Source: Myceligenerans pegani (lineage in GTDB: Bacteria; Actinomycetota; Actinomycetes; Actinomycetales; Cellulomonadaceae). From it: a stretch of 64,000 bases of DNA. The stretch lies in NCBI RefSeq assembly GCF_014892515.1, contig NZ_JADBGR010000056.1, forward strand, positions 1-64,000. The letters are read 5' to 3'. Below, one piece after another: positions 7,801 to 27,794 of the stretch; position 1 is the stretch's first letter, and the number at the start of each line of letters is the position of its first letter. The notes under the pieces are model-generated. The model was not told the DNA's origin, ran no database searches, and worked only from the letters and a program-made list of their open reading frames with translations. Both the position numbers and the translations under genes were made by a program.

Positions 7801-8157
7801 ATGTCCCAGACCGCCGTCGCGGTCGGGTACGCCCGTGACTCCGCACAGCTTGCCGTCGTACAGGCCCACGCCCACGAACAGGGCTACCGGCTGGCCCACG
7901 TGATCGACGACAGTCGCGACGCCGCCACGATCAGCCAGCTCACCAAGCAGGCGATGGACCGAGGCGCTGACGTCGTGATCCTGCCCGGCGACGCGATCTT
8001 GTCGGCCGCACGCAAGCGGCTGGAGAAGGAACTGACCAGCGTCGGCGCCAGGTGCGTCGTGCTCGGTGCCCCGAACGCCCCGGCCCGAGCCGCACTCGAA
8101 CGCGTCCTGCCACGGCGCGACTTCGATGCGGCCCACGGCAAGCACTCCCGCAGGTAA
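7801..8157 (+). CDS. Small protein resembling a serine-recombinase N-terminal domain
   Basis: A 118-aa protein. It begins with VGYARDSAQLA, matching the VGYARVST start of resolvase/invertase domains including the Ser, and continues with HEQGYRLAHVIDD and MDRGADVVILPGDAILS, where recombinases have a conserved basic DRLSR-like segment. It lacks those arginines and any DNA-binding domain, so catalysis is doubtful. It may be a regulator or decoy derived from a recombinase. The next gene starts 47 bp downstream, so cotranscription is likely. Confidence 0.55.
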   Translation: MSQTAVAVGYARDSAQLAVVQAHAHEQGYRLAHVIDDSRDAATISQLTKQAMDRGADVVILPGDAILSAARKRLEKELTSVGARCVVLGAPNAPARAALERVLPRRDFDAAHGKHSRR

Positions 8158-8204
8158 CCCCGCTTTCCGCAACGCCTCGCACGACCGACCACGCGGAGGA
8201 AGAC

Positions 8205-8672
8205 ATGCACAGCAAGGACCCAGAGCAGAATCGTCTCGTCGTCGACCGCCTACCTCAGCGACTCGAAAGGCTCATCGGCGAGCCCGAAGCGAAGATCGTC
8301 ATTGTGATCGTGGGCCACGAGATCGCTGCCGAACTCGGCCTCGTCGCACCTACGCGTGTGTCCGCCCGGTCACGGGAGGCGGGTCGGCATTCGGCCTTGG
8401 CGCAGCGGCGACTCGACATGGGACTGGCTCAGCAGGGTCTGGCTGAGGAGATCGGCGTCCAACTCTCGACCGTCGGCCGGTGGGAGCGGGGTGTCACGAA
8501 GCCGTCGCCGTGGGCGCGTCGTCGGCTCTGCGAGGTGCTCGATGTCTCGCCCGACGAGCTGAGCGTGCTCCTGGACGGCGGCGGCACCCTGCCGATTCGC
8601 GTGATGCAGGTGGAGCACACAGATGCCGGTCTCGGGCCTGGAGGCCATCTCCGCGCCGTGGAAGTCCCATAA
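8205..8672 (+). CDS. XRE-family helix-turn-helix regulator
   Basis: A 155-aa protein. GGAGGA ends 4 nt before the ATG at 8205. An XRE DNA-binding domain occupies about residues 60-125 (MGLAQQGLAEEIGVQLSTVGRWERGVTKPSPWARRRLCEVL). The N-terminus has a hydrophobic stretch (IVIVIVGHEIAAELGL) that may be a small folded domain. It lies directly upstream of the lanthipeptide methyltransferase gene in the same orientation, so it could regulate that cluster or element functions. This is inference. Confidence 0.75.
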   Translation: MHSKDPEQNRLVVDRLPQRLERLIGEPEAKIVIVIVGHEIAAELGLVAPTRVSARSREAGRHSALAQRRLDMGLAQQGLAEEIGVQLSTVGRWERGVTKPSPWARRRLCEVLDVSPDELSVLLDGGGTLPIRVMQVEHTDAGLGPGGHLRAVEVP

Positions 8673-8778
8673 CCCTCTGGTTCGATCAGGCACTTTGGAG
8701 GCATCTGATGCGGATCACGGCTCGCCGGGCGTGTCGTCGTCACCGGTCCCGTAGCCTCGCCACGTGGATGAGAGGTCA

Positions 8779-10011
8779 ATGGACGACGAGACGATGCGGT
8801 TGGACATGTTGGATCGCTTGGTGGCGATGCGCGGCTACCCGTTGGCCGAGGAGGTCGCCGAGGCGATGCGTGTTGTGCCGCGTCACGTGTTCGTGCCGCA
8901 GGCGCCCCTGAGCGAGGCGTACGGCCTGGGAGCCGTGATCACTCACCGGGACGCCCACAATGTGCCGATCAGCTCGGCATCCGCGCCGGGCACGGTCGCG
9001 GGCATGCTGGAGCAGGCCCAGGTCCGGCCAGGTCACCGCGTCCTGGAGATCGGTGCGGGGACGGGATACAACGCGGCCTTGCTGGCACACCTCGTCGGTC
9101 CGTCCGGTTCCGTGACGACGATCGAGTTCGATCCGGACGTGGCGGAGGCCGCCCGGGAACATCTCATCGCCTACGGTGCCGACCAGGTGCGTGTGGTGAC
9201 CGGGGACGGGACTATCGGGGACCCGAGCCAGGCTCCCTTCGACCGGATCCTGGTGACGGCGGGTGCGTGGGATGTCGCGCCGGCCTGGGTGGACCAGCTC
9301 GCCCCGGGAGGACGGATCGTCCTGCCGCTGAGGTTGCGCGGCTTGACCCGGGTGGTGGCGTTCGAGCGGGACGGGGATCGGCTGCGTAGCGTGTCGGTCG
9401 CTGAGGACGGCTTCATCCCGATGAAGGGCATCGGAGCGATCCCCGAGAAGAACGTTCCCCTGGGCCAGGGACCGGACATCACGCTGCGCATCGACGACAA
9501 CCAGCCGGTCGCATCCGCGCTCTCGACTGCCCTGGACGAACCGCCTGTGTTCGAGTGGACCGCTATCGAGTCTCCATGGGCGTGGACCCCTGACCAGGAC
9601 TTCTGGCTCGCCACGTTGCCCGGGTTCTGCCGGGTGTTCGTCGATGCCGAGGCGGTGACCGCTGGACGGGTGCCACGTGCGAAGGATCCGTGGGGAGCGT
9701 GGGGCGTCCACGCCGGCGGTTCGGTCGCGTACATGACGGCGCAACAGGTCGGCGGCACGGACGAGATGCCCATGCTCCAGGTGGGTGCATGTGGATTCGG
9801 CCCGGCGGGAGCCGACCTGGCCCGACAGCTCACCGACCGTGCGCGGGCCTGGCTCGACGAGACGGCCGGAGAGGTCGACATCACGATCGAGGCACGCCCC
9901 GCCGCCGAGGCATCTGCCTCCGATGAGGTTGCGGCACTGCTGATCGCCAGGAAGACGGATCACGAGTTCGTCGTCACGGCCGCCCGCAAGTCAGAGGCCA
10001 TGAGCGCGTAG
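8779..10011 (+). CDS. FxLD-system methyltransferase (lanthipeptide-associated, PCMT-like)
   Basis: A 410-aa SAM-dependent methyltransferase of the type named for FxLD lanthipeptide clusters, related to protein L-isoaspartyl O-methyltransferase. The N-terminal part has RHVFVPQAPLSEAYG. The SAM site is VLEIGAGTGYNAALL near residue 90, with acidic TIEFDPDV after it. A C-terminal family-specific domain follows. The start is uncertain: GTG at 8764 is in frame, while ATG at 8779 follows GAGAGG at very short spacing. It converges on lanC across a strong terminator. It probably methylates an acidic residue of the modified peptide; that step is inferred from the family. Confidence 0.85.
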   Translation: MDDETMRLDMLDRLVAMRGYPLAEEVAEAMRVVPRHVFVPQAPLSEAYGLGAVITHRDAHNVPISSASAPGTVAGMLEQAQVRPGHRVLEIGAGTGYNAALLAHLVGPSGSVTTIEFDPDVAEAAREHLIAYGADQVRVVTGDGTIGDPSQAPFDRILVTAGAWDVAPAWVDQLAPGGRIVLPLRLRGLTRVVAFERDGDRLRSVSVAEDGFIPMKGIGAIPEKNVPLGQGPDITLRIDDNQPVASALSTALDEPPVFEWTAIESPWAWTPDQDFWLATLPGFCRVFVDAEAVTAGRVPRAKDPWGAWGVHAGGSVAYMTAQQVGGTDEMPMLQVGACGFGPAGADLARQLTDRARAWLDETAGEVDITIEARPAAEASASDEVAALLIARKTDHEFVVTAARKSEAMSA

Positions 10012-10017
10012 CGATGA

Positions 10018-10058
10018 CGGTGAAGGAGGCCCATATGCGCTTGGAGCCTCCTTCACCG
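10018..10058. terminator. Bidirectional terminator between methyltransferase and lanC
   Basis: A perfect 13-bp stem (10018-10030 with 10046-10058) and a 15-nt loop sit between two convergent genes, 7 bp after one stop and 20 bp from the other. No long T-run is present. Confidence 0.7.
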
Positions 10059-10078
10059 CCGTTCACTCCTCGACGGGC

Positions 10079-11332
10079 TCAGGAGATCAGAAGCAGCGCG
10101 TCCCAGGACGTTCCGACCACTGGCGTGGCGAGATCGTCATGTTCGGCGAGGGCGAGCGCGACGCCTGCGGCCCCGGTGAGGAACCCGGGACGGGCGAATC
10201 TGCTTCCGTGCTCGATGTCGGGAAACAAGAACGGCTGGGTCGGGTCAAGCGCTGCCATGACCCCTCTCGCCGCGTGATGCGCAGCGTTGCGATCAACGCC
10301 GAGAGAGCAGCGCAAGACTCCCGCGTACCCGTGGCAAAGGCCGGGGCTCTCCACGTCCCACCGACCCGGTTGTGCTGCGAGGCCGGCGAAGTCCGCGCGA
10401 GCTTCAGCGGCAAGTTCGTCGTCGTCCAGAGCGTCGGCGGCGTGTAGTAGTGCTCGGGCTATGCCTGGCACGCCGTAGCACCATGCCGCTCGTCGGCCGG
10501 AAAGGCTCGGGGGACCGTCCGCATCCAACTCGCGGCCCGAGATGGCAGCGGGCCATCCGCGCTTATCGACCTTCCACCGGCGCAGCCAGGCAACCGCGCC
10601 CCGAATCGCAGTCTCCTGCCCATCGCCGGTGCCATAGCCGGTGGAGTGCGCGAGGGCGAGGAGCGCGAGAGGGCCGGCCACGCCATGAGCAAGCCCGGTA
10701 TCGGCTGCGCCCGTGGAGTCGAGGCGGGCTGCGACAACATCCGGATGCTCATCGGTTGCCACCCACCATCCCGGACGGAAGCCGTCGCGGTCGGTGAGCA
10801 TCGTCGTCATTGCGTTCACCGCCGCGACCAGACCGCTCTCGGCCGAGGTGTGGCCGGCGACCAGAGCAGCGAGGAGGACTCGTCCGATCCCCGCGAGCCC
10901 GGAGATCGTGTCGTAGATGTGCCACGAGGTTCCGGAGCGTCCGGACCGAACAGATGCGTCGTAAGCCTCCGCAAGGTTTTCCGCGCATGCGGACAGCCAT
11001 CGCACCGACCGAGCAGTTGCGTCGGCCGTCGCGTCCGGATCCGGGAGGTACGGCGAGCCGATGATCAGCGAGCTCGCCAGTCCGCCCAGCACACCATGAA
11101 CTCCGGAGCCGGGCAGTGGTGTTGAAGCTGCTTGCAGCGCGGCGGTGTCCCAGTGTGCCCGTGCGGCGTGGCCGAGTTCGGGGTCGAGGTGGGACAGGCG
11201 TGCGTGCAGCAACGCGGTGCCCGGCAGTCCCTCTGCGAGAGTCGCTGACGTATTCGGCGGTGCACCCTGACGGACGACGTCGGGGTCGCGAAGCCGCTCA
11301 GCGACCGCGACGGCAGCTTCGCCCGGGCTCAC
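10079..11332 (-). CDS. Lanthionine synthetase C-like cyclase (LanC)
   Basis: A 417-aa zinc cyclase that would add Cys thiols to dehydrated Ser/Thr to form lanthionine rings. The GTG start at 11332 overlaps the LanB stop (GTGA). The zinc ligands are present: Cys285 in WCYGVPG, and Cys333-His334 in GLCHGYAG. The catalytic His216 lies in TGLAHGVAG. The Gly-rich alpha/alpha-barrel repeats of the family are visible throughout. All key residues are kept, so it should be active. It is the last gene of the lanA-lanB-lanC operon. Confidence 0.92.
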   Translation of the reverse strand: MSPGEAAVAVAERLRDPDVVRQGAPPNTSATLAEGLPGTALLHARLSHLDPELGHAARAHWDTAALQAASTPLPGSGVHGVLGGLASSLIIGSPYLPDPDATADATARSVRWLSACAENLAEAYDASVRSGRSGTSWHIYDTISGLAGIGRVLLAALVAGHTSAESGLVAAVNAMTTMLTDRDGFRPGWWVATDEHPDVVAARLDSTGAADTGLAHGVAGPLALLALAHSTGYGTGDGQETAIRGAVAWLRRWKVDKRGWPAAISGRELDADGPPSLSGRRAAWCYGVPGIARALLHAADALDDDELAAEARADFAGLAAQPGRWDVESPGLCHGYAGVLRCSLGVDRNAAHHAARGVMAALDPTQPFLFPDIEHGSRFARPGFLTGAAGVALALAEHDDLATPVVGTSWDALLLIS

Positions 11333-14223
11333 CGGTCGCCACTCGCGATCAGCTCTGCAGCCAGAGCACGAGCCAGGCGCTCGTCGTCGTGCCCGAGGCC
11401 CAAACGGTTGGCGTGCATATGGATCACCGACGAGGCGCACTCGGCGCTGCGGCCTTCCGGGACGAGGCCGCCATACTTGGCCAACTCACGCGCGCGCAGA
11501 GCCCACAAGTCCTGCGCGCCCTCATCAAGGAGGTGCGAAGGTCGCCCCCGTGCAGGGACGCGTAACTCGTTGACGCGTCGCCGTGATGGGCGATCCAGTC
11601 GCGGCCGCCCGACCGCGTCACGGGCGCCTCGCGCCAGTCCCCGGCTGATCTCCATCGCGGAGTGGGCGGCAAGCTGCACGCGCGTGTCGGCATCGGGCCG
11701 GTCTGCGAGGAAGGCCAGCACGAGCCGACTATCAGTGTGGAAGAGGCGTTCGGCGGCATCGATGGCGGCCGGGCCGCCGTACCGGTCGATCTCAGGTTCG
11801 TAGGGCTCGATGGCGACGCGGCTGGCAAGGCCCGTGTCCATCCACCTCGCACACTGTGCGGACACGGCGGGCAGCACGCGGTTGTTCAGCGTGGCGGGGT
11901 CACCGGTGAACCGGAGGCGTAGGTGCGGGCCGTGTGCTCGATTGTCGTAGCGGAGCCAGAACCAATGGTCGACGTCGTCTCGTACCTGGTCGCCGAGGTC
12001 ACTGATCCGCGCGAGCAGATCCTCGTGGTGAACGACCGGGGATGCGATAGCCAGAGAGAGCCACCGCCCGCCGGGAACGTGGACAACTGTGGGCGTCGAT
12101 TCGATCGGGCGGCGCTGATCCGAACCGTCCGCCTGTGGGTGGCTAGCCTCTAACGGGATGACGAGTTCCACGACATGACGGCCGTCAGCGCCATCTGCGA
12201 CGGCCTGGAGCGCGTCCGGTCCACCGGGAGGAGCTGTCACGGCATCGACGCCCCGCCGCACGTAGCGACGCAGGAGATCTCGGTCTCGGGAATCGTCCAA
12301 GTCGAGAGGGAGACGCTGGTCAACGTCCTGGGTGACGACCACACGCGGAGGTTGAGGGACGGCCCCGGCGCGCCATCGGTCCAGCTCGGTCTCCCAGGCT
12401 GCCGCGTCACGGACCGCCGTGATGAGTGCGTGCGGAAGACGCCAGCGTGCAGGAGAAAGGATGGTGCGCCGCCAGCGGACTTCGGGAAGGAACGGCGCAC
12501 CGTTCATCGGCCCCCACATCCAGACATGCCACGGCCGCGAACCCGAGTTGGCCAGGTCCTGGAGCAATCGAACCGCAGGCGGCAGGTATGCCGGTCCGAT
12601 CCGGGAGTAGAGCTGCGGGACAACCTCACGATCGAGCGACCGGGACCACAGCCTCAGCCGCTGCCCATCGGATGCCAGGTCCAGATCTGCCAACGTCAGA
12701 TCGCCCGGGCCGGGAAGCACACCGACACAGATCCGAACGGGAGCGAATCCGGACGGCAGTGTCACCGTGGTGAGTGCCGCAAGGCGTGGGCGAACCACGA
12801 TCTCTGCCTCGACAGGTCCGCCGTCGCCCCACTCCATGGCCCCCGGGCCGGGCAGATCGAGAAGCGAAGCAAACCTGCCGATGGTGGAACCCGCATCCTG
12901 GGTGCACCCGAGGTACGCCGCCAACATGTATTTGCCGTCGACCGCGTCGTCAGGCGACTGCGCTACGACCTGAGCGTAGAGTTCGCCGGTTGCCGGCGGT
13001 GACGCGGTGCCCTCCACTCGGAGCGCATCGATGACCACGTCGTCAAGCTCGACCACCGTGCTCGACCGCCTCATCGCGACCGCGGCGAGGTCCGCCAAGA
13101 CCCGGGAGCGTCGCGTCTCTTCCGGTGCCGGGTGATCGTCGTCATCGTCGGGGTCGCCCAGGCCCTTGACCGGATCGACGACACTCAGCAGAGGCACGCG
13201 ACGGTCCATGCCGAACCGGTCGATGAACCGGGCGTGGTAGGTCTCCAAGGTCCCCGACGTGGGCATGATGCTCCACAGCAGGGACGCCGCTTGCGTCCCC
13301 TCGGTCACGAGCGAGGACGGGACCTGGAACTCTGCATCGACGGACACATCGATCGTGATCGGACTCTCATGCCGGACGATCCGATCGCAGACCTCACGAG
13401 CCTCGACCAGCGCGCCAAGCCGTCCCTCCGCACCCGGCGCGTACTTGTCTGCCTCAGCAAGCAAGTCCCTCAGCGCGAGGAGATCCTTCGTCAGCTCGTG
13501 GGAGGCCGGCACCCTCATGAGCAGATACCGAAGAGGATCCTGCGAGACGTCGTCCGGTAGCAGGTCCGTCAGGAGAAGACCCGTGCGGACCAGCTCCAGC
13601 GCGGTCGCTCGTACCGTCGCGGCCGGGACTCCGGGCCATCGCTCGTTGACGGCCGCGACGAGCCGCTTCAGGTCCGCAGAAGGGCGGCACGTCTCAAGGA
13701 TCTGCTCGACCGCGGGCGTTGCCCTGACCGTGACTCGTTCAGGCTTCTTCGCGCCGGTCGAGTATTCGTGCTCGAACCGATCCCCGCGGCGCACGACGAG
13801 GTCGTTTGCCGCGAACCGCAGATTCGCAAGTACCTCCGGGATAGCGGCAACGCGAAGCGCCAGCTCACTCAACCATGCGGCCGACGGCGTACTCCTGGCT
13901 CGGTGATTCCTCCCGACCCGGAAGCGGGCCGGCGCCTTGGCCACCTCGGCGACCTGGACACCAGCAAACGCACCCCGAGGCGTCGCCCGATGACGAGCAC
14001 GGTGCTCGTACGCACGCACCGTCGAGGCAAGCCGCTCGTCCGCATCCAGATCGTCAGAGGCCACTGTCGCGAGGGAGCGCGAAGCGAAACGCAGCCCTTC
14101 CGCGAACGAACCGGACAGTGGGTCCGCCGGTTCCCCGGATTCGACCGGCAGCAGCGGCATGCGTGCGACGACCGGAAACCCGGCATGCAGACCGAACGTC
14201 CGTTCGCGCCCCATCGTGGTCAC
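11329..14223 (-). CDS. Class I lanthipeptide dehydratase (LanB, full length)
   Basis: A 964-aa protein containing both halves of a class I dehydratase. The large N-terminal region (about 1-640) is of the glutamyl-tRNA-dependent glutamylation type. The C-terminal SpaB_C/thiopeptide-type elimination domain (about 690-960) shows GGRWLSLAIASP and HWFWLRYDNRAHGPHLRLRF. It would dehydrate Ser/Thr of the FxLD peptide. The GTG start at 14223 lies 7 bp after the precursor stop; an in-frame ATG at 14214 is possible. It overlaps lanC by 4 bp. The length is normal and no frameshift is seen. Confidence 0.92.
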   Translation of the reverse strand: MTTMGRERTFGLHAGFPVVARMPLLPVESGEPADPLSGSFAEGLRFASRSLATVASDDLDADERLASTVRAYEHRARHRATPRGAFAGVQVAEVAKAPARFRVGRNHRARSTPSAAWLSELALRVAAIPEVLANLRFAANDLVVRRGDRFEHEYSTGAKKPERVTVRATPAVEQILETCRPSADLKRLVAAVNERWPGVPAATVRATALELVRTGLLLTDLLPDDVSQDPLRYLLMRVPASHELTKDLLALRDLLAEADKYAPGAEGRLGALVEAREVCDRIVRHESPITIDVSVDAEFQVPSSLVTEGTQAASLLWSIMPTSGTLETYHARFIDRFGMDRRVPLLSVVDPVKGLGDPDDDDDHPAPEETRRSRVLADLAAVAMRRSSTVVELDDVVIDALRVEGTASPPATGELYAQVVAQSPDDAVDGKYMLAAYLGCTQDAGSTIGRFASLLDLPGPGAMEWGDGGPVEAEIVVRPRLAALTTVTLPSGFAPVRICVGVLPGPGDLTLADLDLASDGQRLRLWSRSLDREVVPQLYSRIGPAYLPPAVRLLQDLANSGSRPWHVWMWGPMNGAPFLPEVRWRRTILSPARWRLPHALITAVRDAAAWETELDRWRAGAVPQPPRVVVTQDVDQRLPLDLDDSRDRDLLRRYVRRGVDAVTAPPGGPDALQAVADGADGRHVVELVIPLEASHPQADGSDQRRPIESTPTVVHVPGGRWLSLAIASPVVHHEDLLARISDLGDQVRDDVDHWFWLRYDNRAHGPHLRLRFTGDPATLNNRVLPAVSAQCARWMDTGLASRVAIEPYEPEIDRYGGPAAIDAAERLFHTDSRLVLAFLADRPDADTRVQLAAHSAMEISRGLARGARDAVGRPRLDRPSRRRVNELRVPARGRPSHLLDEGAQDLWALRARELAKYGGLVPEGRSAECASSVIHMHANRLGLGHDDERLARALAAELIASGDR

Positions 14224-14230
14224 GCCCTAC

Positions 14231-14404
14231 TTACTTGCAGTTGCACTTGGTCGCGCACGTCGCCGAACAGCCGACGCTCGGACAGCTCGCGGAGCATCCG
14301 TCGTTCGTGTGGTTCGTGCACGCCATCGGCACCGGCGTCGTCCGGATGTCCAGGTCGAACAGATCTGCGGTCACACGGTCCAACACCACGGTGTCACTGC
14401 TCAT
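14231..14404 (-). CDS. FxLD-family lanthipeptide precursor (LanA)
   Basis: A 57-aa ORF, ATG at 14404, TAA at 14231-14233, with AGAGAGG six bases upstream of the ATG. The leader contains the defining FDLDI (FxLD) box at residues 16-20. The Cys-rich tail, from about residue 24, has seven Cys (29, 37, 41, 46, 50, 54, 56) interleaved with Ser/Thr, for example DGCSASCPSVGC, and ends CNCK. LanB starts 7 bp downstream. It is short and easily missed by automatic gene calling. The leader/core boundary and ring pattern cannot be assigned from sequence. Confidence 0.92.
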   Translation of the reverse strand: MSSDTVVLDRVTADLFDLDIRTTPVPMACTNHTNDGCSASCPSVGCSATCATKCNCK

Positions 14405-14667: not shown

Positions 14668-14815
14668 CCAATCTACACCATTCATCCAATTCTAAACCCA
14701 ATATCATCAAACCATTCACCCACAAATCAATCCCCATATACCATCACCCATACCAACCAAAACATCCCACAATACCCATATCACATATCCCCATTCCACC
14801 ATCCCCACCTCACCA
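14668..14815 (+). other. 148-nt G-free, A/C/T-only tract upstream of the relaxase
   Basis: The + strand has no G from 14668 to 14815, and only one (14816) up to 14832. The tract is AT-rich compared with its surroundings and repeats CCCATA/CCATACC-type words. Such strand bias is extreme for this genome. The transcript leader of the relaxase would be unstructured. A role as a transfer origin or protein-loading site is speculation. Confidence 0.75.
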
Positions 14816-14874
14816 GACACACCTCTTTCATCGTGGCCACTGGACCCGGACTGGCGCCCGTGGGTGGCGTGACG

Positions 14875-17800
14875 ATGACGCTGCACAAGCTGTCTGCGGG
14901 GTCGGGGTATGAGTACCTGACCCGGCAGGTTGCTGCCGCCGATTCCACGGAACTGGGCAATTCGCCGCTGGCGGACTACTACGCGGCCAAGGGTGAGGCG
15001 CCGGGCCGGTGGATCGGTTCGGGCCTGGGGGACATCGACGGCCTGGCACCGGGGGATCTGGTGACGGCGGAGCAGATGCGCAACCTGTTCGGGCAGGGCC
15101 TGCACCCGCTGTTCGGTGACGAGAACCCGTTGCGGCTCGGTGCCGCGTACCGCACGTACTCGAACGAGCGCGCCGTGAAGTTCGCGGTGGAGGTCGTGCG
15201 GCGGATCGAGCAGGAAAATGCTGCGGCGGGTCGCCCGGCCAAGGCGCGGCCGGATCGGGCGATGGTGGCGCGGATCCGCTCGGAGGTCGCGGCGGAGTTC
15301 TTCGTCGAGGATCACGGCCGGTTGCCGAAGGACGCGCGGGAGCTTGCGGGTGCGGTAGCGCGGTATTCGCGGTTCCGTACGGCGGTGGCGGGGTTTGATC
15401 TGACGTTCTCCCCGGTCAAGTCCGTCTCGGTGCTGTGGGCGCTGGCGCCCATGCAGGTGGCCCGGCGGATCGAGGCCGCGCACGAGGCGGCCTTCGCGGA
15501 GGCGCTGCGGTTCATCGAGGAACACGCCCTGTACACGCGGGAGGGTGCGAACGGTGCCCGGCAGGTGGAGGTGAGCGGCCTGCTCGGAACGGCGTTCACT
15601 CACCGCGATTCGCGGGCCGGTGATCCGGACCTGCACACGCATGTCGCGGTCGCGAACAAGGTCCGCACGCGGGAGGGCAGGTGGCTGACGATCTACGGCA
15701 AGGTGTTGTACGAGCACGTCGTGGCCGCCTCGGAGGTGTACAACACCGCCCTGGAACGCCACCTCGCGGACGATCTGGGGTTGGAGTTCGCCGAGCGGCC
15801 CGCCGCTCCCGGTAAGCGGCCGGTGCGCGAGATCGTCGGGGTGGACGCGGAGCTGTGTGAGGCGTGGTCGGCGCGCCGCGTAGCGGTCGTGGCCCGGCAG
15901 CGGGAGCTAACGATCGAGTTCGAGGCGGTCCATGGGCGACCGCCGTCCAAGTCCGAGGCGTACGGGCTGGCGCAGCAGGCGAACCTAGAGACCCGCGAGG
16001 CCAAGCACGAACCCCGATCCCTGGCCGAACAGCGCGCCACCTGGCGCAGCCAGGCCGTCGCGCTGCTCGGCGAGCAGGGCGTGCGGAACATGCTGGACAA
16101 CGTCCTCGGTGCCGATGCCCCCGCACCCCGGGAAGCGGTGACGACCAAGTGGGTGGAGAACGTGGCCGCGCGCGTGGTCGGGGAACTCGAGGCGCGGGCC
16201 GCGACGTGGCAGGACTGGCACCTGCACGCCGAAGCAATGCGGCAGATCCGCGCCGCCGCAGACGGCGTCGACCTGCCAGCCGAACACTTGACGCAGGTGA
16301 CCGCGCAGGTGGTAGACGCGGCGCGGTCGCGGTGTGTGAATCTGACTCCGGACCTGGACGAAGTAGCCGAGCCGGCTGCGTTGCGCCGCTCGGACGGGGT
16401 GAGCGTGTACCGGCACACCGGCGCCGACCGGTACACGACAGCCCGCATCCTCGCCGCCGAGGAACGCATCCTGGCCGCCGCAGGCCGCACCGATGGCGCC
16501 GCCGTCGCGGCCGACGACGTCGACCTGGCCATGCTGGAACTACACGCCGGCGGCCTGCGGCTCAACGACGCGCAACGAAACCTCGTGACCCGGATGGCTG
16601 CCAGCGGGCGGCGCGTCGAGGTTGGTGTGGCTCCGGCGGGCACGGGCAAGACGACCGCGATGCGCGCTCTGACCCACACCTGGCGACAAGCCGGCGGACG
16701 CGGAGGCGCGGGCGGGAACGTGATCGGACTGGCACCATCGGCCGCCGCCGCAGCAGCCCTGCGGGGCGCGACCGGCATGCCGTGCGACACCCTGGCGAAG
16801 GTCATCGAGGAACTGCACCACACCGGCCAGCGGAGCCGGGGCGGGCCGCCGTCGTGGCTGACCGCGATCGGCCCCGACACGCTCGTCATCATCGACGAAG
16901 CCGCCATGGCCGACACCCTCACCCTCGACACCGTCATCGCGTTCGCGATCGGGCGTGAGGCGTCGGTGCGGCTGGTCGGGGACGATCAGCAGCTCGCCGC
17001 GATCGGCGCCGGAGGCATCCTGCGCAACCTCGACCACACCATCGGTGCCATGCGGCTCGACGAGCCGGTCAGGTTCACCGACCCGGCCGAGGCCACCGCC
17101 ACCCTCGCCCTGCGCGACGGTGACCCGTCCGCGCTCGGCTTCTACCTCGACCACGACCGCGTCCACGTCACCGACCAGACCACCGTGGCCGACCGTGTGT
17201 ATGCCGCCTGGGCGAACGACCGCGCCGCCGGACTCGACGCGCTCATGCTCGCCCCCACCCGCGATCTGGTGGCCGAACTCAACCAGCGCGCACAAGCCGA
17301 CCGGCTCACCGAGCTCGACGACCGTGCCGTCGGACGCGGGACGGCGCTCTCGGACGGGCACACCGCGTACGTGGGCGAGGTGATCCTGACTCGGCACAAC
17401 GACCGACGCCTGCGCATCACGGGCACGGACTGGGTCAAGAACGGCGACCGATGGACCGTCACGAAGGTCCGCAGGAACGGCGCGCTCACGGCTCGCCATC
17501 ACGCGACTGGCCTGAGTGTCACGCTTCCGGCCGCCTACCTCGCCGAGCATACGCAACTTGGGTACGCGTCCACTGTCCATACCGCACAGGGAGTTACCGC
17601 CGACACGACCCATGGCATCCTCACCGGCACGGAGTCGCGGCAACTGCTGTACACGATGCTCACCCGAGGCAGGCACGCCAACCACGTCCATGTCCTCACC
17701 GCCTGCCCCGACGCTGCCCTCTCCGGCAGTGACATCCACATGCCGACGCTGTTCGACCTTGGCGCCCTCGACACCGCGACCGAAACCCTCGAAGGCGTCC

Positions 17801-18855
17801 TCGCCCGCGACGGCGCCGCCATCTCCGCAACCAGCGTCGCCCAGCACGCCGCCGCACCCGCCACCCGACTCCACCAAGCCGCCCTCCGCTACGAAGACGC
17901 CGTCCACGCCGCCGCCGAGCACCTCATCGGCCCGCAGCGCACCGACCAGATCGCCCAGCACGCCGAACGAGCACTCCCCGAACTCACCGACCAGCCCGCC
18001 TGGCCCGCCCTCCGCGCCCGGCTCACCCTGGCCGAAGCCGACGGCCACGACGCCACGCGATTGCTCGACTGCGCCATCATCCAGCGCGAACTGACCACTG
18101 CCGAGGATCAGGCCGCAGTCCTGACCTGGCGCGTCGACCGACTCGCACCCGCCGGAAAAGGGCCACTGCCGTGGCTCCCGGCTGTCCCGCGCGGTCTTAC
18201 AAGCGCACCGGAATGGTGCCAGTACGTGACTGCTCGCGCCGCCCAGGTCCACGACCTCACCGACCACGTACTCACACAGTCGCGCCGTGTCAGCACAGAG
18301 CGAGCGGAGGAACCTGTTTGGATGCCCACTGACGGCATGCTGCCAGACGACCTCTCCGCGAGGGTCGCGGTCTGGCGCGCGGCCACGGACGTCGCCGAGG
18401 CCGACCGGCGCCCGACTGGCGCGACACAGCACCATCCTGCGCTTCGCGCCCATCAGCGCGCGCTGGAACGTCGCCTCGCCGAGCACCTGCACGAGCTGGC
18501 CCGACGTACATGGGAACCGGTCGTCGTGGCCGCCGCCGGACGACGCGACCAAGAGACCGACACCCTGGCGGACTACCTCGAACAGATGCGCCGCCTCGGC
18601 CTCGATCCCGCCGCACGGCTGCGCGAGGCAATAGCCCGCGGTCTGCTGCCCGATGACTACCCCACCGCAGCCCTCACCTCACGAATCATCCACGACCGCG
18701 ACGCCGCCGGAGCCGAGCATGACGCCAGACCAGAGCACAAGCACGCCCCAGCTCGGACGCGCTCTCCCGCCCGCCCGCAGTCACCCGATCACTACCTCGG
18801 CCCACCTCACGATCACGACACCGGTCAAGACCACGGGCAAGGCATCGGAATCTGA
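14875..18855 (+). CDS. MobF-type relaxase-helicase (TraA/TrwC-like)
   Basis: A 1326-aa conjugative relaxase that would nick oriT, hold the strand through Tyr and unwind the DNA. ATG at 14875 gives the usual start MTLHKLSAGSGYEYLTRQV, with candidate catalytic Tyr12/Tyr14; GTG starts at 14833 and 14869 are also in frame. The metal-binding His are 243, 254 and 256 (FTHRDS...LHTHVAVAN). A RecD-like helicase follows, with Walker A PAGTGKT near 589 and Walker B IIDEAAM near 673. The final 350 residues are helical and charged. It is complete. No coupling protein gene is adjacent, suggesting mobilization by a helper. Confidence 0.92.
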   Translation: MTLHKLSAGSGYEYLTRQVAAADSTELGNSPLADYYAAKGEAPGRWIGSGLGDIDGLAPGDLVTAEQMRNLFGQGLHPLFGDENPLRLGAAYRTYSNERAVKFAVEVVRRIEQENAAAGRPAKARPDRAMVARIRSEVAAEFFVEDHGRLPKDARELAGAVARYSRFRTAVAGFDLTFSPVKSVSVLWALAPMQVARRIEAAHEAAFAEALRFIEEHALYTREGANGARQVEVSGLLGTAFTHRDSRAGDPDLHTHVAVANKVRTREGRWLTIYGKVLYEHVVAASEVYNTALERHLADDLGLEFAERPAAPGKRPVREIVGVDAELCEAWSARRVAVVARQRELTIEFEAVHGRPPSKSEAYGLAQQANLETREAKHEPRSLAEQRATWRSQAVALLGEQGVRNMLDNVLGADAPAPREAVTTKWVENVAARVVGELEARAATWQDWHLHAEAMRQIRAAADGVDLPAEHLTQVTAQVVDAARSRCVNLTPDLDEVAEPAALRRSDGVSVYRHTGADRYTTARILAAEERILAAAGRTDGAAVAADDVDLAMLELHAGGLRLNDAQRNLVTRMAASGRRVEVGVAPAGTGKTTAMRALTHTWRQAGGRGGAGGNVIGLAPSAAAAAALRGATGMPCDTLAKVIEELHHTGQRSRGGPPSWLTAIGPDTLVIIDEAAMADTLTLDTVIAFAIGREASVRLVGDDQQLAAIGAGGILRNLDHTIGAMRLDEPVRFTDPAEATATLALRDGDPSALGFYLDHDRVHVTDQTTVADRVYAAWANDRAAGLDALMLAPTRDLVAELNQRAQADRLTELDDRAVGRGTALSDGHTAYVGEVILTRHNDRRLRITGTDWVKNGDRWTVTKVRRNGALTARHHATGLSVTLPAAYLAEHTQLGYASTVHTAQGVTADTTHGILTGTESRQLLYTMLTRGRHANHVHVLTACPDAALSGSDIHMPTLFDLGALDTATETLEGVLARDGAAISATSVAQHAAAPATRLHQAALRYEDAVHAAAEHLIGPQRTDQIAQHAERALPELTDQPAWPALRARLTLAEADGHDATRLLDCAIIQRELTTAEDQAAVLTWRVDRLAPAGKGPLPWLPAVPRGLTSAPEWCQYVTARAAQVHDLTDHVLTQSRRVSTERAEEPVWMPTDGMLPDDLSARVAVWRAATDVAEADRRPTGATQHHPALRAHQRALERRLAEHLHELARRTWEPVVVAAAGRRDQETDTLADYLEQMRRLGLDPAARLREAIARGLLPDDYPTAALTSRIIHDRDAAGAEHDARPEHKHAPARTRSPARPQSPDHYLGPPHDHDTGQDHGQGIGI

Positions 18856-18936: not shown

Positions 18937-20016
18937 CTACGCCGAATCTCCTTCCGAAATATTCCACCTGCTGATCCATTCCATCATTGCCTCGATATCT
19001 ATTGGTTCGATCTTGAGCCCCAGATCGCCGAGGGGATGCGTCGAAGAGTCGAAACACAGAACCTCGTGTGCAGCAAGGTCCCGTTCTATACGTGCAGCGA
19101 GTGCTGCATCGGACTTAGCGTCTCCACTCGGGTGGATAGAAACCGCGATCGTGCGACTCGGCCCTGCGTTCAGGGCGTCTACGATATGATTGTCCTGTTC
19201 GGCCAACGAGTGGCCGAACACGATGGTGTCGTACGAATCTTCGTAGAGGTGGTCATAGCAGTACCGGAGGTACTCAGAAGCTCCAATAGTGTTCAACTTT
19301 TGTCGAGGCGTTCCTTCACTTACGAATAATGGCTGTCGACGAGACTCGGGGGAGTACTGTTGCAGCACGTCGAGTAGCGATCCGCCAGGAGGGTCATTTT
19401 TCCACTTCCCGTCGCGCCCCTGATCGTCATGCCAAAGATGAAGAGCCCCGTGTAGATAGTAGATCGCAGTCCAGTCTCGATACCAGCGGTTCGCCGTATC
19501 CTCATCAAATGTGTAGTCAGGTTTTGTCCAGAAGAAGTCCTTGATCCTGAGTTCTGCCTGATTGCTCGCGGATCGCAGTGCGGCGGACTGCATATGCGCC
19601 CAGTACAGACAGAGGTCGTAGTTGGTCGTGAAAACAGACCGGTGCTTGGCTATCTCTTCAGCGATTAGCGTGTGGGTGGAATCTGGAACTCCGGCCCAGT
19701 CGACGTGTGCCCTGCTGACAGTCTTCAACAGCGCGTCCCGGACGGCGGCGTACGCATTGTCGATAAGCGTAGTAGGGAGCCCTACGGCGTCATCGACGAT
19801 GCGGGCATGGTGGATTGCCGCAAGCACTTCCTCGAAGTTGGTTGTGCGCAGGTCATCGAACACCCTGCTTGCAGAGTCCGTAAGGTCCGCCTGCTCATAC
19901 AAGTTCTTATACCAGAACCCGTCCCAGAGATTCATGCTAAGTCCGTTGCCAATAAGCAGCGTGGGCCAGGTTCGTTCTTGGATCTCATCCCACTTTCGGA
20001 GTTCGTTTCCGACCAC
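18937..20016 (-). CDS. SIR2-like DUF4917 family protein, candidate defence effector
   Basis: A 359-aa protein. GTG at 20016 is chosen because GGAGG lies 6 nt upstream. SIR2-fold signatures are visible: LLIGNGLSMNLWDGF near residue 16 (nucleotide loop), VFTTNYD near 125, YLHGALHLWHDD near 190 and TIVFGHSLAEQDNHI near 275. SIR2-like proteins often deplete NAD+ in anti-phage systems, and DUF4917 is uncharacterised to my knowledge. The gene has visibly lower GC and more A/T third positions than its neighbours, suggesting separate transfer. It lies between relaxase and integrase, a usual cargo position. Confidence 0.8.
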   Translation of the reverse strand: MVGNELRKWDEIQERTWPTLLIGNGLSMNLWDGFWYKNLYEQADLTDSASRVFDDLRTTNFEEVLAAIHHARIVDDAVGLPTTLIDNAYAAVRDALLKTVSRAHVDWAGVPDSTHTLIAEEIAKHRSVFTTNYDLCLYWAHMQSAALRSASNQAELRIKDFFWTKPDYTFDEDTANRWYRDWTAIYYLHGALHLWHDDQGRDGKWKNDPPGGSLLDVLQQYSPESRRQPLFVSEGTPRQKLNTIGASEYLRYCYDHLYEDSYDTIVFGHSLAEQDNHIVDALNAGPSRTIAVSIHPSGDAKSDAALAARIERDLAAHEVLCFDSSTHPLGDLGLKIEPIDIEAMMEWISRWNISEGDSA

Positions 20017-20318
20017 GTTCGTCCTCCAGGTTCGTATTATTTGGGACTGCCCGGACCGGTCGACACGTCTTCGTCGATGAGTCGACCGCAAGGGGGCAGG
20101 GCGTCTTCAGCGTAGAGGGTTTCGCATTCGATAGGTGCCATGCGGCCAGGGCTGGAACTCTTTCGCAGTGGAGCCATGTCGAGCGTGATCCTTGCCTCGA
20201 ACGTCGCAGTTCCATGCTGTCCGGCTGAGGAAAGCAGGGCTGAGCGGCGCACCCTTTTGGGGCAACGGCAGCCACAGCGACTGGCTGCCAGTCTTGACTC
20301 GGAGCCCCAAGCGATCCG
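20017..20318. other. 302-bp spacer upstream of the DUF4917 gene
   Basis: It holds the presumed promoter of the DUF4917 gene. Weak minus-strand frames such as 20037-20252 (71 aa) lack a good ribosome-binding site and a recognisable family. A dyad GTCGAC...GTCGAC occurs around 20058-20093. I see no RNA gene. Confidence 0.4.
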
Positions 20319-20983: not shown

Positions 20984-22402
20984 CTATTCTTCCGTTTCGA
21001 AGCCCTCGGCGGCGTCATCTGCCGCGCGTAGTGCAGACGCGTAGTGCAGATGAACGAACGCGACACACACGTCAGCGCGACGGCCTTCTTGCTGGAACCG
21101 GAGCACGGGCCAGCTGGCATGCTCGCCGACGCGTTCGATGTAGGCATCGTGTGCGGTCAGCGCGCGGATAGCGTTCCCCTCCACCGCCTCAAGGTCCTCA
21201 TTTGCGACAAAATAGATCAACATGCCAGTGGTATGGCGCTGGCCCAGGTAGCCGAGCAACTGGTCGAGATCGTCGCGAACGCGTGCCTCCCCGCCCCACC
21301 ACTTGCACTCGCAAACGAACACAACTTCTTCGCCAGTGCCGCGGTCCGTGTCCTTCATCCGGACGGTGATGTCGGTCTTTCCGACGTGCCGGAAGACCTC
21401 ACGATCCGCACCACCGGCGCTCAGCATGTTGAGCGCGATGCAGATCTGGTCCGTGATCCAGTCCTCGTACGCACGCTGAGGCCGATGGAAGGACCTGGGA
21501 TAGCGCTGTGCACCGTTCGCCCATCGGCGAACGGCCACCACGATGTCTGCAAACGTGGTGTCGGTCAGGCCGCGCGGCAGGAGTTGGAGTGCTGCTGGCT
21601 CGGCGGGCGGCGCACCCGCTTCGGCTGTCTGGAGGTCGACCTCCAGTGTCGCCCTGGGGAATCCGAGCGGCCATGAGAGTGCATTCTCGAAGGCTTCGCG
21701 GTTCCGTGCCTCGGACCGGCGTCGTTCGAGGGCCGACACCACCTTGGCAGGCAACGTCGTCTGCCGGTACTCGTTGATCTGGCTTGCGATGCGATCGACG
21801 ATCGGTCGGACCCGGGCGATCTGCTCGTCGACGAAGCTCTTGTGGGCGGAGTGATCGAAGCCCTCGTGATAGGTCCTCGGGTCGATGTGCAGCCGGAACC
21901 ACAAGCACGGCACGTCCCGGTGTTCGCCGACTGTGAATCGCTCCTGCGCCGCTCGAAACTCGAATCGCCGCATCGCGTCCTGCTCGTCGTAGTCATCGCT
22001 GACGAGCGGGTGTGCCCACCCATCACCGTCGAACGGATCGATGGGCTCGACGTCATCAGCCGCATCCGGCCAGGTCAGGAGAAGCGAAGCGTCACCCACG
22101 ACTCCGAAGGCGATCATCTGGACATGCGCATCCGTCTTCGTTGACGGCCCGATCTCGAGCGATGGCCCCTGGAACTGCTTGAACGCGCCCATCTCGACCT
22201 CGCCGCTGAACGCTGGAGGCTCCACGGTGAGATCGCCTAGCACCCGTTCGAGGATGACATCGTCCGGCAGGTCGATTTCCGATTCGGCGAGGGCGCCGAT
22301 CGCCAGGAGGGCGCGGTTTCCCACGTGATGGTCGAGGTATCTCGACAGTGGGTTCGACTCCTTGCGGTAGGTGGTGAAGCATCCAGGGGTCACGAGCATC
22401 AC
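20984..22402 (-). CDS. Putative PD-(D/E)XK nuclease-fold protein
   Basis: A 472-aa protein of no recognised family. Near the C-terminus a restriction-endonuclease-like core is visible: Glu313 in a helix (AYEDWITDQI), Asp344 in KTDITVRM, and Glu365-x-Lys367 in VFVCECKWW, then a helix (DDLDQLLGYL) and the strand GMLIYFV. This order matches the PD-(D/E)XK nuclease fold. The N-terminal 300 residues are unassigned. It starts GTG at 22402 or ATG at 22399. Its position in element cargo next to a SIR2-like gene suggests DNA or RNA defence, which is inference. Confidence 0.65.
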   Translation of the reverse strand: MMLVTPGCFTTYRKESNPLSRYLDHHVGNRALLAIGALAESEIDLPDDVILERVLGDLTVEPPAFSGEVEMGAFKQFQGPSLEIGPSTKTDAHVQMIAFGVVGDASLLLTWPDAADDVEPIDPFDGDGWAHPLVSDDYDEQDAMRRFEFRAAQERFTVGEHRDVPCLWFRLHIDPRTYHEGFDHSAHKSFVDEQIARVRPIVDRIASQINEYRQTTLPAKVVSALERRRSEARNREAFENALSWPLGFPRATLEVDLQTAEAGAPPAEPAALQLLPRGLTDTTFADIVVAVRRWANGAQRYPRSFHRPQRAYEDWITDQICIALNMLSAGGADREVFRHVGKTDITVRMKDTDRGTGEEVVFVCECKWWGGEARVRDDLDQLLGYLGQRHTTGMLIYFVANEDLEAVEGNAIRALTAHDAYIERVGEHASWPVLRFQQEGRRADVCVAFVHLHYASALRAADDAAEGFETEE

Positions 22403-24067: not shown

Positions 24068-25360
24068 TCACCCGTCGTGGAATCCGTTCAGCTTGGCGGC
24101 GATCGCGGCGTCGCGGGTTGCTGCCGCGTGCTGGTAGCGCAGCGCGGCGGCGAGCGAGACGTGCCCGCCGCGCAGCATCAGCTCGGCCGCAGTTGCCCCG
24201 GTGCGCGCGGCGAGTGTCAACGACGTGTGTCGTAGCGCGTGGATGGTCATGTCGGGGTGGCCGATCTTCTTGCCCGCTGCCTTCAGCGCGCGCCACAGCG
24301 GCGAGTAGCCCATCGGTTTGGTCGGGTCCTTGGGGCTGGGGAAGACTCGTCCGTCGGGGCCGGGTGCGGCGTGCCCGTCCTTGATGTGTTTGTCGAGGGC
24401 TCGAACGGCGACGGTGGGCAGGTGCACGGCACGTTTTCCTGCTTCGGTCTTCGGGTCGCTGACCTCGTACTCGCCGCCGCCGATGTGCTGCACCTGGTGA
24501 TGGATGCGCACCAGGCCCGTCCCGGCCTCCGGGTCGAGTTCCAGGTCCGCATTGCGCAAGTCCCGCAGCTCGCCAAGACGCGGCGTGCCCCACCCGGCGA
24601 GCAGGACGAAAGCGCGCAGCCTGGGCGGCATCGCATCGGCCAGCGCGGCCAGCTCGGCCGGTTCGAGCGCTGGCGGCTCCTTGGCCCGCTTGACGCTCGT
24701 CGCACCCTTGACCCGGCACGGCGAGGCAGGGAGCAGATCCTCGCGCACGGCCGTGTTGAAGATCGCCGCGGCCAGGGCATACACGTGCGCGGCTCGGGTA
24801 CGCCCGGTCTTCGGCTTGCCGACGGACTTGATGACCGCCTCACGCTCGGCGTCGGACAAGGAACGGCGGCTCCGGGCCGCGCGGCGCTCGGCGGCGGCGA
24901 CCGCTCTGGCAACCTGCGCGGCATGAGCCTCGCGCGCCGCAGCGGCAAGACCGTTCCGCAGCCGGACCTCCCATGCGCTGACCTCGCCCGCCGTGATGTC
25001 AGCCAGCGCGCGGCCACCGAACTCCGGCAGCAGATGGTTGTCCAGGATGCCCCGGTAGAGCTTGCGCGTGCGCGTCGCCAGCTCACGGCCCGCGAACCAC
25101 TTCTCGGCATACTCGCCGAACGTGATCGGCGCGCCCTTCGGCTTGGGCGGCTCGGCGGACCACACGCCCAACTCGATCTTGCGACGCTGGTCAGCCAGCC
25201 ACGTCTCTCCATCGATCTTCGCCGAGAACGTGTGCGGAGCGTTCAGGTAGCGGGTACGCCCCGTCTTGTCCAGGACGCCCCTCGGGTCGGGGTACTTGGC
25301 CTGCCACCGCCCCGACGGCAGCTTGCGCAACTTCCCCCAGGACCGACGCTCTTCGACCAT
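24068..25360 (-). CDS. int: Tyrosine-type site-specific integrase
   Basis: A 430-aa integrase that would recombine the element with the 3' end of tRNA-Pro. The ATG at 25360 is preceded by GGGGAG. An N-terminal SAM-like/core-binding region (FGEYAEKWFAGRELATRTRKLYRGIL) precedes the catalytic domain. Active-site residues are visible: Arg in GTPRLGELRDLR, Lys in SDPKTEAGKR, His-x-x-Arg in HALRHTSLTL, His in RGGHVSLAAALR and the Tyr nucleophile in ALRYQHAAATRD. A long Ala/Arg-rich helical insertion lies near residue 150. The gene ends toward the XRE gene and starts 155 bp from the att core. Confidence 0.93.
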   Translation of the reverse strand: MVEERRSWGKLRKLPSGRWQAKYPDPRGVLDKTGRTRYLNAPHTFSAKIDGETWLADQRRKIELGVWSAEPPKPKGAPITFGEYAEKWFAGRELATRTRKLYRGILDNHLLPEFGGRALADITAGEVSAWEVRLRNGLAAAAREAHAAQVARAVAAAERRAARSRRSLSDAEREAVIKSVGKPKTGRTRAAHVYALAAAIFNTAVREDLLPASPCRVKGATSVKRAKEPPALEPAELAALADAMPPRLRAFVLLAGWGTPRLGELRDLRNADLELDPEAGTGLVRIHHQVQHIGGGEYEVSDPKTEAGKRAVHLPTVAVRALDKHIKDGHAAPGPDGRVFPSPKDPTKPMGYSPLWRALKAAGKKIGHPDMTIHALRHTSLTLAARTGATAAELMLRGGHVSLAAALRYQHAAATRDAAIAAKLNGFHDG

Positions 25361-25515
25361 CGGACTCCCCTTCTCGCGTGCTCCATACGTGCACCACAAG
25401 GTTACCCCAGGGGGTTACTGTGGCCATTCCTGTCACCTAGCCTCCGGCGTGACATTGCAGGTCAGAGCACAATATGACAGATCCGGCGGCAGGCAACAAA
25501 GCGCCGGGTGACAGC

Positions 25516-25537
25516 TTCAAATCCTGTCACCCCGACC
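25516..25537 (+). other. attR core: 3' end of a tRNA-Pro gene
   Basis: TTCAAATCCTGTCACCCCGA, continuing CC, matches the T-loop through acceptor end of actinobacterial tRNA-Pro. No upstream tRNA body is present; the base just left of the core differs from tRNA-Pro. This is therefore the residual copy left by integration. The + orientation predicts the intact tRNA at the left end of the element. Confidence 0.85.
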
Positions 25538-25542
25538 CATGG

Positions 25543-25586
25543 AAAGGCTCTCTGACCAGCGGCAGCGCATGGTCAGAGAGCTTTTT
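25543..25586 (+). terminator. Rho-independent terminator of the original tRNA-Pro gene
   Basis: A perfect 12-bp stem (25547-25558 with 25570-25581) is followed by TTTTT and preceded by AAA. It sits right after the tRNA remnant, where the tRNA transcript would have ended before integration. Confidence 0.85.
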
Positions 25587-25602
25587 CGCGTCTCCGGGGC
25601 GG

Positions 25603-26889
25603 CTATTCCTGAATGACGACCTCACGGGCCCGCCCGCCGCCCAGCCGTCCGTCCGCGGGCCGACGGCTGTCCGCCGCCCAGGCGACGCCGGCCAGCACCA
25701 GCAGCCCGAGTGCCACCATCCACGGGTGCGCGACCACCGCCGTCTCGACGCCGGCGAGCGGGTTGGCGAGGACTCCGAGCCGGTCCAGGACCCAGGCGGC
25801 CGCCATGACGAGCGCCACCGACGCGCCGCTCAGCCGGACCGGCGTCGACCAGCTGGAGCGGGCCAGTACCCACAGCGACGGGAAGACAAGCACGACGACG
25901 GCAAGCTGCGAGAGCTCCACGCCCAGGTTGAACGCCAGCAGATTGAGCACCGACGTCGACCCGGACAGCCCGAGGTCGGCCAGGATCCCCGCGAACGCCA
26001 GGCCGTGGACCAGGCCGAACCCGCCCGCGACGAGCGCCTCGCCCTGGTGCACCAGCGGCCGGATCGCGTGGATCCCCGCCACGCCGATCGACGCGCCCAC
26101 CAGCACCTCGATCGGCCCCGACGGGAACGACACCCAGCCCGTCGCCGCCGCGATCAGAGTGATCGTGTGCCCCACGGTGAACGCCGTGACCACGGCCAGT
26201 AGGCCCTTGACCGTCCCGCCGGCCCCAGCGCGCGGTCGCCATCGCCCCGCCACGGCGACCATGGGCGCGACGAGCAGCAGCGTGACGAGGAACAGCAGGT
26301 GGTCCGCGCCCTCCAGCACGTGGTGGAAGCCGTAGCCGATCATGTCGAGCACGCCGGCGGAGGAGGTCGATGCGACGTCGAGGGACGCGTCGCCGATCGC
26401 GACGCTCGGCTCGGAGCCGGTGATGACGCCGGCCGTGGAGACGTCGCCGGCGGCGTCGGTGAGGACGACGACGGCCTCGTGGCCGCTGTCGGCCTCGATG
26501 ATCCCGTCGTACGACAGCACCAGGTCGCTTCCGTCGGCGCCGCCGGTGTCGAAGGCGACGTCCACGCTGACGGACTCGATCCCCTCGACCGTCTCGTACG
26601 TGACATCGCCCCAGGTCTCGCCCCACTCGGCGCCGTCGGCGCCGGTGACGGCCAGATGCTCGTCGAGGTAGTCGACGACGGCGTTCGCGTCCAGGGTGCC
26701 GATGGCGTCCTCCAGGGTCTGGGCCGCCACCGAGACGGTGGCGTCGGCGCCGTCCTCGGCGGTGCGCACCGAGATGGTGCTGCTGGTGAGGCTGTGGGCT
26801 GCCGCGGTCGTCGGGAGCAGGGTCGCGAGCACGGCGGTGACCGCCGCCGCGAAGGCGGCGGTCACGCGTCGGATCGGTGGGTTCTTCAT
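25603..26889 (-). CDS. HupE/UreJ-family membrane protein
   Basis: A 428-aa protein starting MKNPPIRRV at 26889. A signal peptide (AAFAAAVTAVLATLLPTTAAAHS) is followed by an extracellular beta-rich region to about residue 200. A membrane domain follows with YGFHHVLEGADHLLFLVTLLL, VTAFTVGHTITLIAA and VEVLVGASIGVAGIHA-like segments characteristic of HupE/UreJ metal-permease relatives. The His-rich helices suggest a metal ion substrate, but that is not established for this subgroup. It lies 34 bp after a lipoprotein gene and is probably in an operon with it. Confidence 0.8.
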   Translation of the reverse strand: MKNPPIRRVTAAFAAAVTAVLATLLPTTAAAHSLTSSTISVRTAEDGADATVSVAAQTLEDAIGTLDANAVVDYLDEHLAVTGADGAEWGETWGDVTYETVEGIESVSVDVAFDTGGADGSDLVLSYDGIIEADSGHEAVVVLTDAAGDVSTAGVITGSEPSVAIGDASLDVASTSSAGVLDMIGYGFHHVLEGADHLLFLVTLLLVAPMVAVAGRWRPRAGAGGTVKGLLAVVTAFTVGHTITLIAAATGWVSFPSGPIEVLVGASIGVAGIHAIRPLVHQGEALVAGGFGLVHGLAFAGILADLGLSGSTSVLNLLAFNLGVELSQLAVVVLVFPSLWVLARSSWSTPVRLSGASVALVMAAAWVLDRLGVLANPLAGVETAVVAHPWMVALGLLVLAGVAWAADSRRPADGRLGGGRAREVVIQE

Positions 26890-26923
26890 CGGGTCGCCTC
26901 TGTTCGTCCTTGTCCGAACCCGA

Positions 26924-27547: not shown

Positions 27548-27794
27548 GGTGACTCCTCGTGTTCCGTCGTGGTGTGCACTCACTCTCTGATTCGTCTCCA
27601 TGTGCCGTCTGCCAGGGCGCTGTGCCGAACCTATGAAGGGCAGGACGGCCGAGCGGTGGTACGCGCATGGACGCCGGACGATCTCCTGGCGACAGCGTTC
27701 TTGCCCGGATGCGACGGGCGAACTCGCGCCGCACCCGCACTCCCGCCGTGAGAGCCTGGACGCATTCGTCCCCCGTAACACCTGGAGGCCCGTG

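Follow-up and report, generated by a model that had tools for sequence, protein, structure and literature searches.

A class I FxLD-type lanthipeptide cluster, probably of the aspartimide/isoaspartate type, on an apparent integrative mobilizable element of Myceligenerans pegani

The closest described systems are the lanthimiditides, class I lanthipeptides made with an additional PIMT homologue (LanSA) and exemplified by OlvA, OlvB, OlvC and OlvSA of Streptomyces olivaceus (excerpts of PMC13001092 and PMC7268733). According to the same excerpts, OlvSA acts later than OlvB and OlvC and leads from an ester through an aspartimide to isoAsp and Asp (PMC13001092), and TxDGC cores occur in class I clusters with PIMT-type enzymes (PMC13001092; PMC10787088, likewise in excerpt). 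Lanthipeptide genes on mobile DNA have also been described: BreLI, a Brevibacterium lanthipeptide ICE, measures about 96-100 kb and lies at a ribonucleotide reductase gene (PMC6579920, in the part available), and in a survey of class II (lanM) clusters lanthipeptide genes were over-represented beside mobility and defence genes (PMC12715929, in the part available). Among the titles and abstract openings searched, we found no account of FxLD clusters on MobF elements.

The window (the whole 64-kb stretch of DNA that was analysed, which is contig C44 from base 1) resembles the lanthimiditide systems in having LanB, LanC, a PIMT-type enzyme and a core Asp in TxDGC. It differs from them in a longer, Cys-rich core (seven Cys and a doubled GCSxxC motif, relative to the other precursors compared), in a convergent methyltransferase gene, and in the apparent location of the cluster on a MobF element. 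Like BreLI, as far as the available part of that report describes it, this would be an actinobacterial integrative element with lanthipeptide genes, but its estimated length is about 26 kb, it occupies a tRNA-Pro site, and no secretion genes were recognised in the ORFs scanned; unlike the class II (lanM) clusters of the excerpted survey, the window cluster is class I and lies beside MobF. The biosynthetic class is well known, and the novel part is the mobile, double-motif subgroup. The features are, in order along the window:

7801..8157, plus strand: small conserved protein, no Pfam match, with relatives on contigs C11, C88 and C56 of the same assembly
8052..8672, plus strand: XRE-type regulator (PF01381), 5' of the methyltransferase and co-directional with it; true start probably internal
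8764..10011, plus strand: FxLD-system PIMT-type O-methyltransferase, LanSA-like (TIGR04364 and PF01135)
10018..10058, no strand assigned: hairpin in the gap that separates the methyltransferase gene from the convergent LanC gene (fold z -3.95)
10079..11332, minus strand: LanC cyclase, 417 aa, GTG start, with WCYG and LCHG (PF05147, 129 bits)
11329..14214, minus strand: LanB dehydratase with both domains, start ATG 14214
14231..14404, minus strand: LanA precursor, 57 aa, with FDLD leader, T33-N-D35-G-C37 core, seven Cys and doubled GCSA(S/T)C
14668..14832, no strand assigned: strand-asymmetric tract between precursor and relaxase, with a 148-base G-free run on the plus strand; oriT candidate
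14875..18855, plus strand: MobF (TrwC-type) relaxase-helicase; the reading frame is open from 14833, with ATG 14875 as the likely start
24068..25399, minus strand: tyrosine integrase (PF00589, PF14659)
25516..25537, plus strand: attR, a 22-bp repeat of the tRNA-Pro(CGG) 3' end

The precursor gene translates as MSSDTVVLDRVTADLFDLDIRTTPVPMACTNHTNDGCSASCPSVGCSATCATKCNCK, a complete ORF with the FDLD motif and seven Cys that the first-pass annotation had read in it. FDLD occupies residues 16-19 and the Cys residues 29, 37, 41, 46, 50, 54 and 56; eight Ser/Thr lie beyond residue 28, and the sequence GAGAGG stands close upstream of the ATG. Both parts of a class I precursor of this type, an FxLD leader and a Ser/Thr/Cys core, are thus present. 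The ORF is kept in frame on C11, in Promicromonospora sp. AC04 and in genomes G359 and G1049, and in each of these a LanB, a LanC and a methyltransferase gene adjoin the homologue. Between the window and Promicromonospora, 75% of the aligned LanA residues match; differences per site are 0.17 (nonsynonymous) and 0.46 (synonymous), and the resulting dN/dS (0.27) is similar to that of LanB (0.25) and the methyltransferase (0.21) over the same pair. In-frame conservation in four relatives together with this ratio puts the ORF beyond chance and shows the precursor to be under selection. Judged by its sequence and conservation, the 57-aa ORF is a true class I precursor of an FxLD-type lanthipeptide.

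In its FDLD leader and a linked methyltransferase above cut-off, the window resembles the FxLD systems of the NCBI models (TIGR04363/TIGR04364), but its precursor reaches 19.2 bits with the precursor model TIGR04363 against a cut-off of 30, and is not filed there. Scores of the relatives are 16.9 bits (Promicromonospora) and 10.9 bits (G359), with no match for C11; since all four scored subgroup precursors thus fall below the curated cut-off, annotation would miss them, which agrees with the earlier remark that the peptide is easily overlooked. When 296 genomes including the window's were searched with TIGR04363 (E 0.01), the precursor on C88 was the sole listing from the window's genome, where 24 of 49 candidates were scored. 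Surveys relying on curated FxLD models therefore have a blind spot, in that they would find the enzymes without the peptide.

LanB matches PF04738 (457 bits, positions 5-649 of 649) and PF14028 (140 bits, positions 1-253 of 255), both nearly full length; the glutamylation and elimination domains looked for in a class I pathway are both there, and 5ehk and NisB are its relatives of solved structure. Its start is conserved in three LanBs, C11 and Promicromonospora included, which supports ATG 14214, 16 bp beyond the precursor, in place of the GTG 14223 from which a gap of 7 bp had been derived. The most likely LanC start on sequence grounds is GTG 11332, which shares 4 nt (RTGA) with the LanB stop, the same overlap as in all three loci compared, and the zinc ligands (Cys of WCYG, Cys-His of LCHG) align with those of NisC. 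The methyltransferase scores 381.7 bits with TIGR04364 (cut-off 320) and 144 bits with PF01135, and is thus the PIMT homologue of an FxLD system that marks a lanthimiditide cluster; its best solved relative is 1dl5, the T. maritima PIMT (PMC10787088, in the part available). On all these points (both LanB domains and the LanC ligands intact, LanC overlapping LanB, an FxLD methyltransferase convergent on the opposite strand) the first-pass annotation holds. The terminator it placed between the convergent genes survives as a strong hairpin, without a T tract or a terminator consensus.

Pfam recognised no transporter, protease or immunity gene among 20 window ORFs (18 of them within the element), as had been said of dedicated genes of these kinds, and Rfam at gathering scores gave no match in window positions 1-30000. 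By tblastn, the XRE-type regulator has counterparts in Promicromonospora and on contig C11. Identities of the small conserved protein are 71% on C11, 76% on C88 and 42% on C56 (diverged), and its copies (window, L007, L009 and L008) lie near lanthipeptide or methyltransferase genes (HAD and XRE at most). An orphan FxLD methyltransferase on C56 (L008 9593-10840) is 93% identical to that of the window (dN/dS 0.21), with LanA, LanB and LanC not found alongside. A methyltransferase locus on C75 was rejected as a cluster (TIGR04364 299.5 bits, below the cut-off, and no LanB relative adjoining).

Each of the four subgroup precursors compared has FDLD and T-x-D-G-C without variation; the window core reads TNDGC, and so has the core Asp of the lanthimiditides. 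A profile built from these four matched at E 0.001 or better in at least 17 of the 394 genomes of the host's class that were searched, the window's own included (up to 16 first-look candidates scored per genome). Two new matches were strong: G1049 (101 bits), which has a full cluster (LanB 45%, LanC 48%, methyltransferase 55%), and G1093 (88 bits, L130 10979-11152), where LanB, LanC and methyltransferase are all absent from the 20 kb fetched; both have FDLG in place of FDLD. MobF gave no match at the six profile-match loci examined, out of 16 other genomes. D-G-C is also invariant in a comparison of nine precursors, a set that favours it, having been gathered by a pattern that required G, T, N or D directly after D, plus one hand-picked; TNDNC (L110) and SDGGC (G603), from outside this set, make D-G-C usual rather than universal in such clusters. 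Whereas the five non-subgroup precursors among the nine end soon after a single GCxxxC unit, the window core has GCSASC and GCSATC consecutively, and the doubled GCSxxC motif recurs in Promicromonospora, G359, G1049 and G1093 and is less clear on C11. Pattern search gave no precursor in L021, L022, L024, L054 and L058. The counts given for LanB and for precursors are minimum values, 2 to 24 first-look candidates having been scored per genome, depending on the search.

A PIMT homologue together with a TxDGC core leads us to expect an aspartimide or isoaspartate rather than a stable methyl group, so that the methyl group earlier put forward as the mass-spectrometry signature is not the one to look for; the product would be expected at -18 Da or 0 Da, with a +14 Da intermediate possibly alongside. 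If OlvSA-type chemistry applies to this core, D35 of TNDGC is the predicted methylation site, by homology only. We consider it highly probable that the locus encodes a working class I aspartimide/isoaspartate-type (lanthimiditide) pathway, and that this forms a module of an integrative mobilizable element about 26 kb long. In such a pathway LanB would bind the FDLD leader and core Ser/Thr would be dehydrated, LanC would form up to seven thioether rings (one probably T33-C37, enclosing Asp35), and the PIMT-type enzyme would then methylate Asp35 once the peptide is cyclised; the resulting ester would collapse to an aspartimide, hydrolysis would yield isoAsp or Asp, and a host protease encoded outside the cluster would cleave the leader. 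The sub-threshold FxLD score of LanA and the lack of a recognised transporter, leader protease or immunity gene speak against this pathway. It is tempting to guess, by analogy, that the likeliest role of the peptide is that of a secreted competition peptide benefiting the element's host.

There is good evidence, drawn from att repeats, an empty site, excisionase, integrase and a conflict between relaxase and cluster similarities, that an integrative mobilizable element carries the cluster; the first-pass annotation had already proposed that it is cargo on a mobilizable element. The 22-bp att sequence, TTCAAATCCTGTCACCCCGACC, also ends the tRNA-Pro on contig C45 (attL, with an intact tRNA), where the interval from the tRNA to the contig end contains a gene for an excisionase (40.9 bits with TIGR01764, cut-off 28.8) and an IS identical to the one opening C44 (1638/1638 bases). 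The att repeat and the shared IS indicate that the element extends over parts of C45 and C44, with its end near 25537; provided that there is just one copy of the IS, its length would be about 26 kb. Congener G001 offers the empty site: an intact tRNA-Pro(CGG) at its match to window 25512-25591 adjoins the match to 27725 onward, and C45 beyond the tRNA-Pro matches the G001 flank at 89%; 25592-27724, missing at the G001 site, is largely present in G003 (from 25661). The features by which integrative elements are known are thus all found: an integrase, an excisionase and, at a tRNA, att repeats. The window MobF scores 250.6 bits with NF041492 (cut-off 100) and matches PF08751. A scan of 18 ORFs of the element recognised no secretion genes; the assembly breaks at the IS, and because the element is split there across two contigs, genes at this point could be missing.

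An origin from a phage or plasmid was considered and rejected, since a pattern scan of IMG/VR gave no LanB relative, the precursor was unmatched in plasmid and phage collections, and the plasmid matches of LanB and of the methyltransferase (83 records each) all fell below 60% identity. Beyond the relaxase, two anti-phage candidates lie at 18937-20091 and 20984-22402 (-) (PADLOC PDC-S21, DUF4917/SIR2-like, 326 bits; PDC-S54, 112 bits). In G002 (C1:314405-334113; L104, L105), the flanks of the same tRNA-Pro site are ~20 kb apart, which suggests a different element.

The order methyltransferase, LanC, LanB, LanA, with a MobF relaxase past LanA, recurs in Promicromonospora sp. AC04 and on contig C11, with a 363-aa ORF separating G-poor tract and relaxase on C11, which stops soon past the relaxase, and several ORFs between LanA and relaxase in Promicromonospora. 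These two elements share a tRNA-Ala(CGC) site, an integrase (65%) and a relaxase (69%), and no att repeats turned up for them in the stretches examined, of about 45 kb (C11) and about 60 kb (Promicromonospora). The window differs in its tRNA site, its relaxase is 35-37% identical to either of theirs, and its integrase does not match theirs at E 1e-5. Within the cluster the pairing is another: window and Promicromonospora are the closer pair for LanB (63%; pairs with C11 give 55-56%), LanC (61%; 50-51% with C11) and methyltransferase (75%; 63-66% with C11), and they also share the closer LanA. Because relaxase and cluster similarities conflict, modules appear to have moved between element backbones; module exchange is the simplest reading of these pairwise identities from three loci, and is suggestive.

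Mobile elements are common and their cargo is diverse, so the nearness of cluster and MobF could be chance, and MobF is indeed common here (each of 7 genomes has 1 to 7 matches). Among 221 genomes of the host's family, LanB matches occupy at least 13 places in at least 8 genomes (3 candidates scored per genome), a count that retains the loci of G174, G197 and G029, in which the DNA examined held no methyltransferase; nine of the 13 are without MobF in the 15-20 kb examined. Outside the family MobF was found at one of the 15 loci examined, several of them short stretches or ending at a contig end, and that one (L025, Streptomyces sp. ISL-87) has a 1485-aa MobF of 104 bits (cut-off 100). At the remaining four family loci (window, C11, G268:C4 and G272:C30; four of the ten that also have a methyltransferase), however, MobF lies within about 3.3 kb of the nearest cluster gene, a rough binomial gives 7e-6 to 5e-4 (with an assumed 1-3% background and loci that are not independent), and the link is present on two element backbones; we regard chance nearness as doubtful. 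Four of 13 inside the family as against one of 15 outside makes the link clearest in the host's family.

An intact but unused cluster, briefly kept on the element as a silent passenger, would fit the failure to recognise transporter, protease and immunity genes, and stray pieces do exist (the C56 methyltransferase without LanABC, the G1093 LanA alone in 20 kb), but every gene here is intact, dN/dS is low for LanA, LanB and methyltransferase, and even the orphan on C56 has the low ratio given above when set against the window's, so we find such disuse quite improbable. It is less far-fetched, yet still unlikely, that the peptide serves as a signal or element-maintenance factor rather than as an antibiotic, a reading favoured by the lack of a recognised immunity gene and by regulators (NsdA-like, XRE) on the cluster flanks, and disfavoured by the antibacterial activity common among class I lanthipeptides. 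A 2026 review, in its available excerpts, treats the function of PIMT-modified lanthipeptides as an open question, with aspartimide RiPPs yet to be tied to a biological role, which leaves room for such a reading (PMC13001092). The element-linked subgroup provides a testable setting for this question: is killing, immunity or retention conferred by element carriage?

The G-free run of the tract between precursor and relaxase far exceeds the runner-up in the window (20 bases), and the tract scores 152, the best value over 100 first-order Markov sequences, each 64 kb long, being 37. At nine of 25 MobF loci (window, L073, L074, L077, L078, L080, L087, L093 and L094) a tract with this polarity, having little G on the strand that encodes the relaxase, is located 5' of the gene; the other 16 have none, with about 1.5 kb of flank viewed and two of the 25 being halves of one split gene. 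A 24-mer beside the tract is common to C11 and Promicromonospora with one base different; a segment of 18 bases from this 24-mer is unmatched in the window with up to 3 mismatches allowed. By its composition and position, the G-free tract may be an oriT. F-type oriT are nicked on the GT-rich strand. LanA-LanB-LanC start 264 bp from the tract and point away from the relaxase; if the tract were nicked on its GT-rich strand, the operon would enter the recipient first and the relaxase last. That the operon belongs to the transfer strategy of the element, as a leading-region module swapped between relaxase lineages, strikes us as very improbable; if true, the peptide would act early after transfer, against element-free cells or for retention of the element.

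At L110 (G272:C30) and L025, more ordinary FxLD clusters with a separate LanB elimination-domain match adjoin MobF, and on C75 a MobF relaxase (L010 21-1735) is spread over two frames and is apparently broken.
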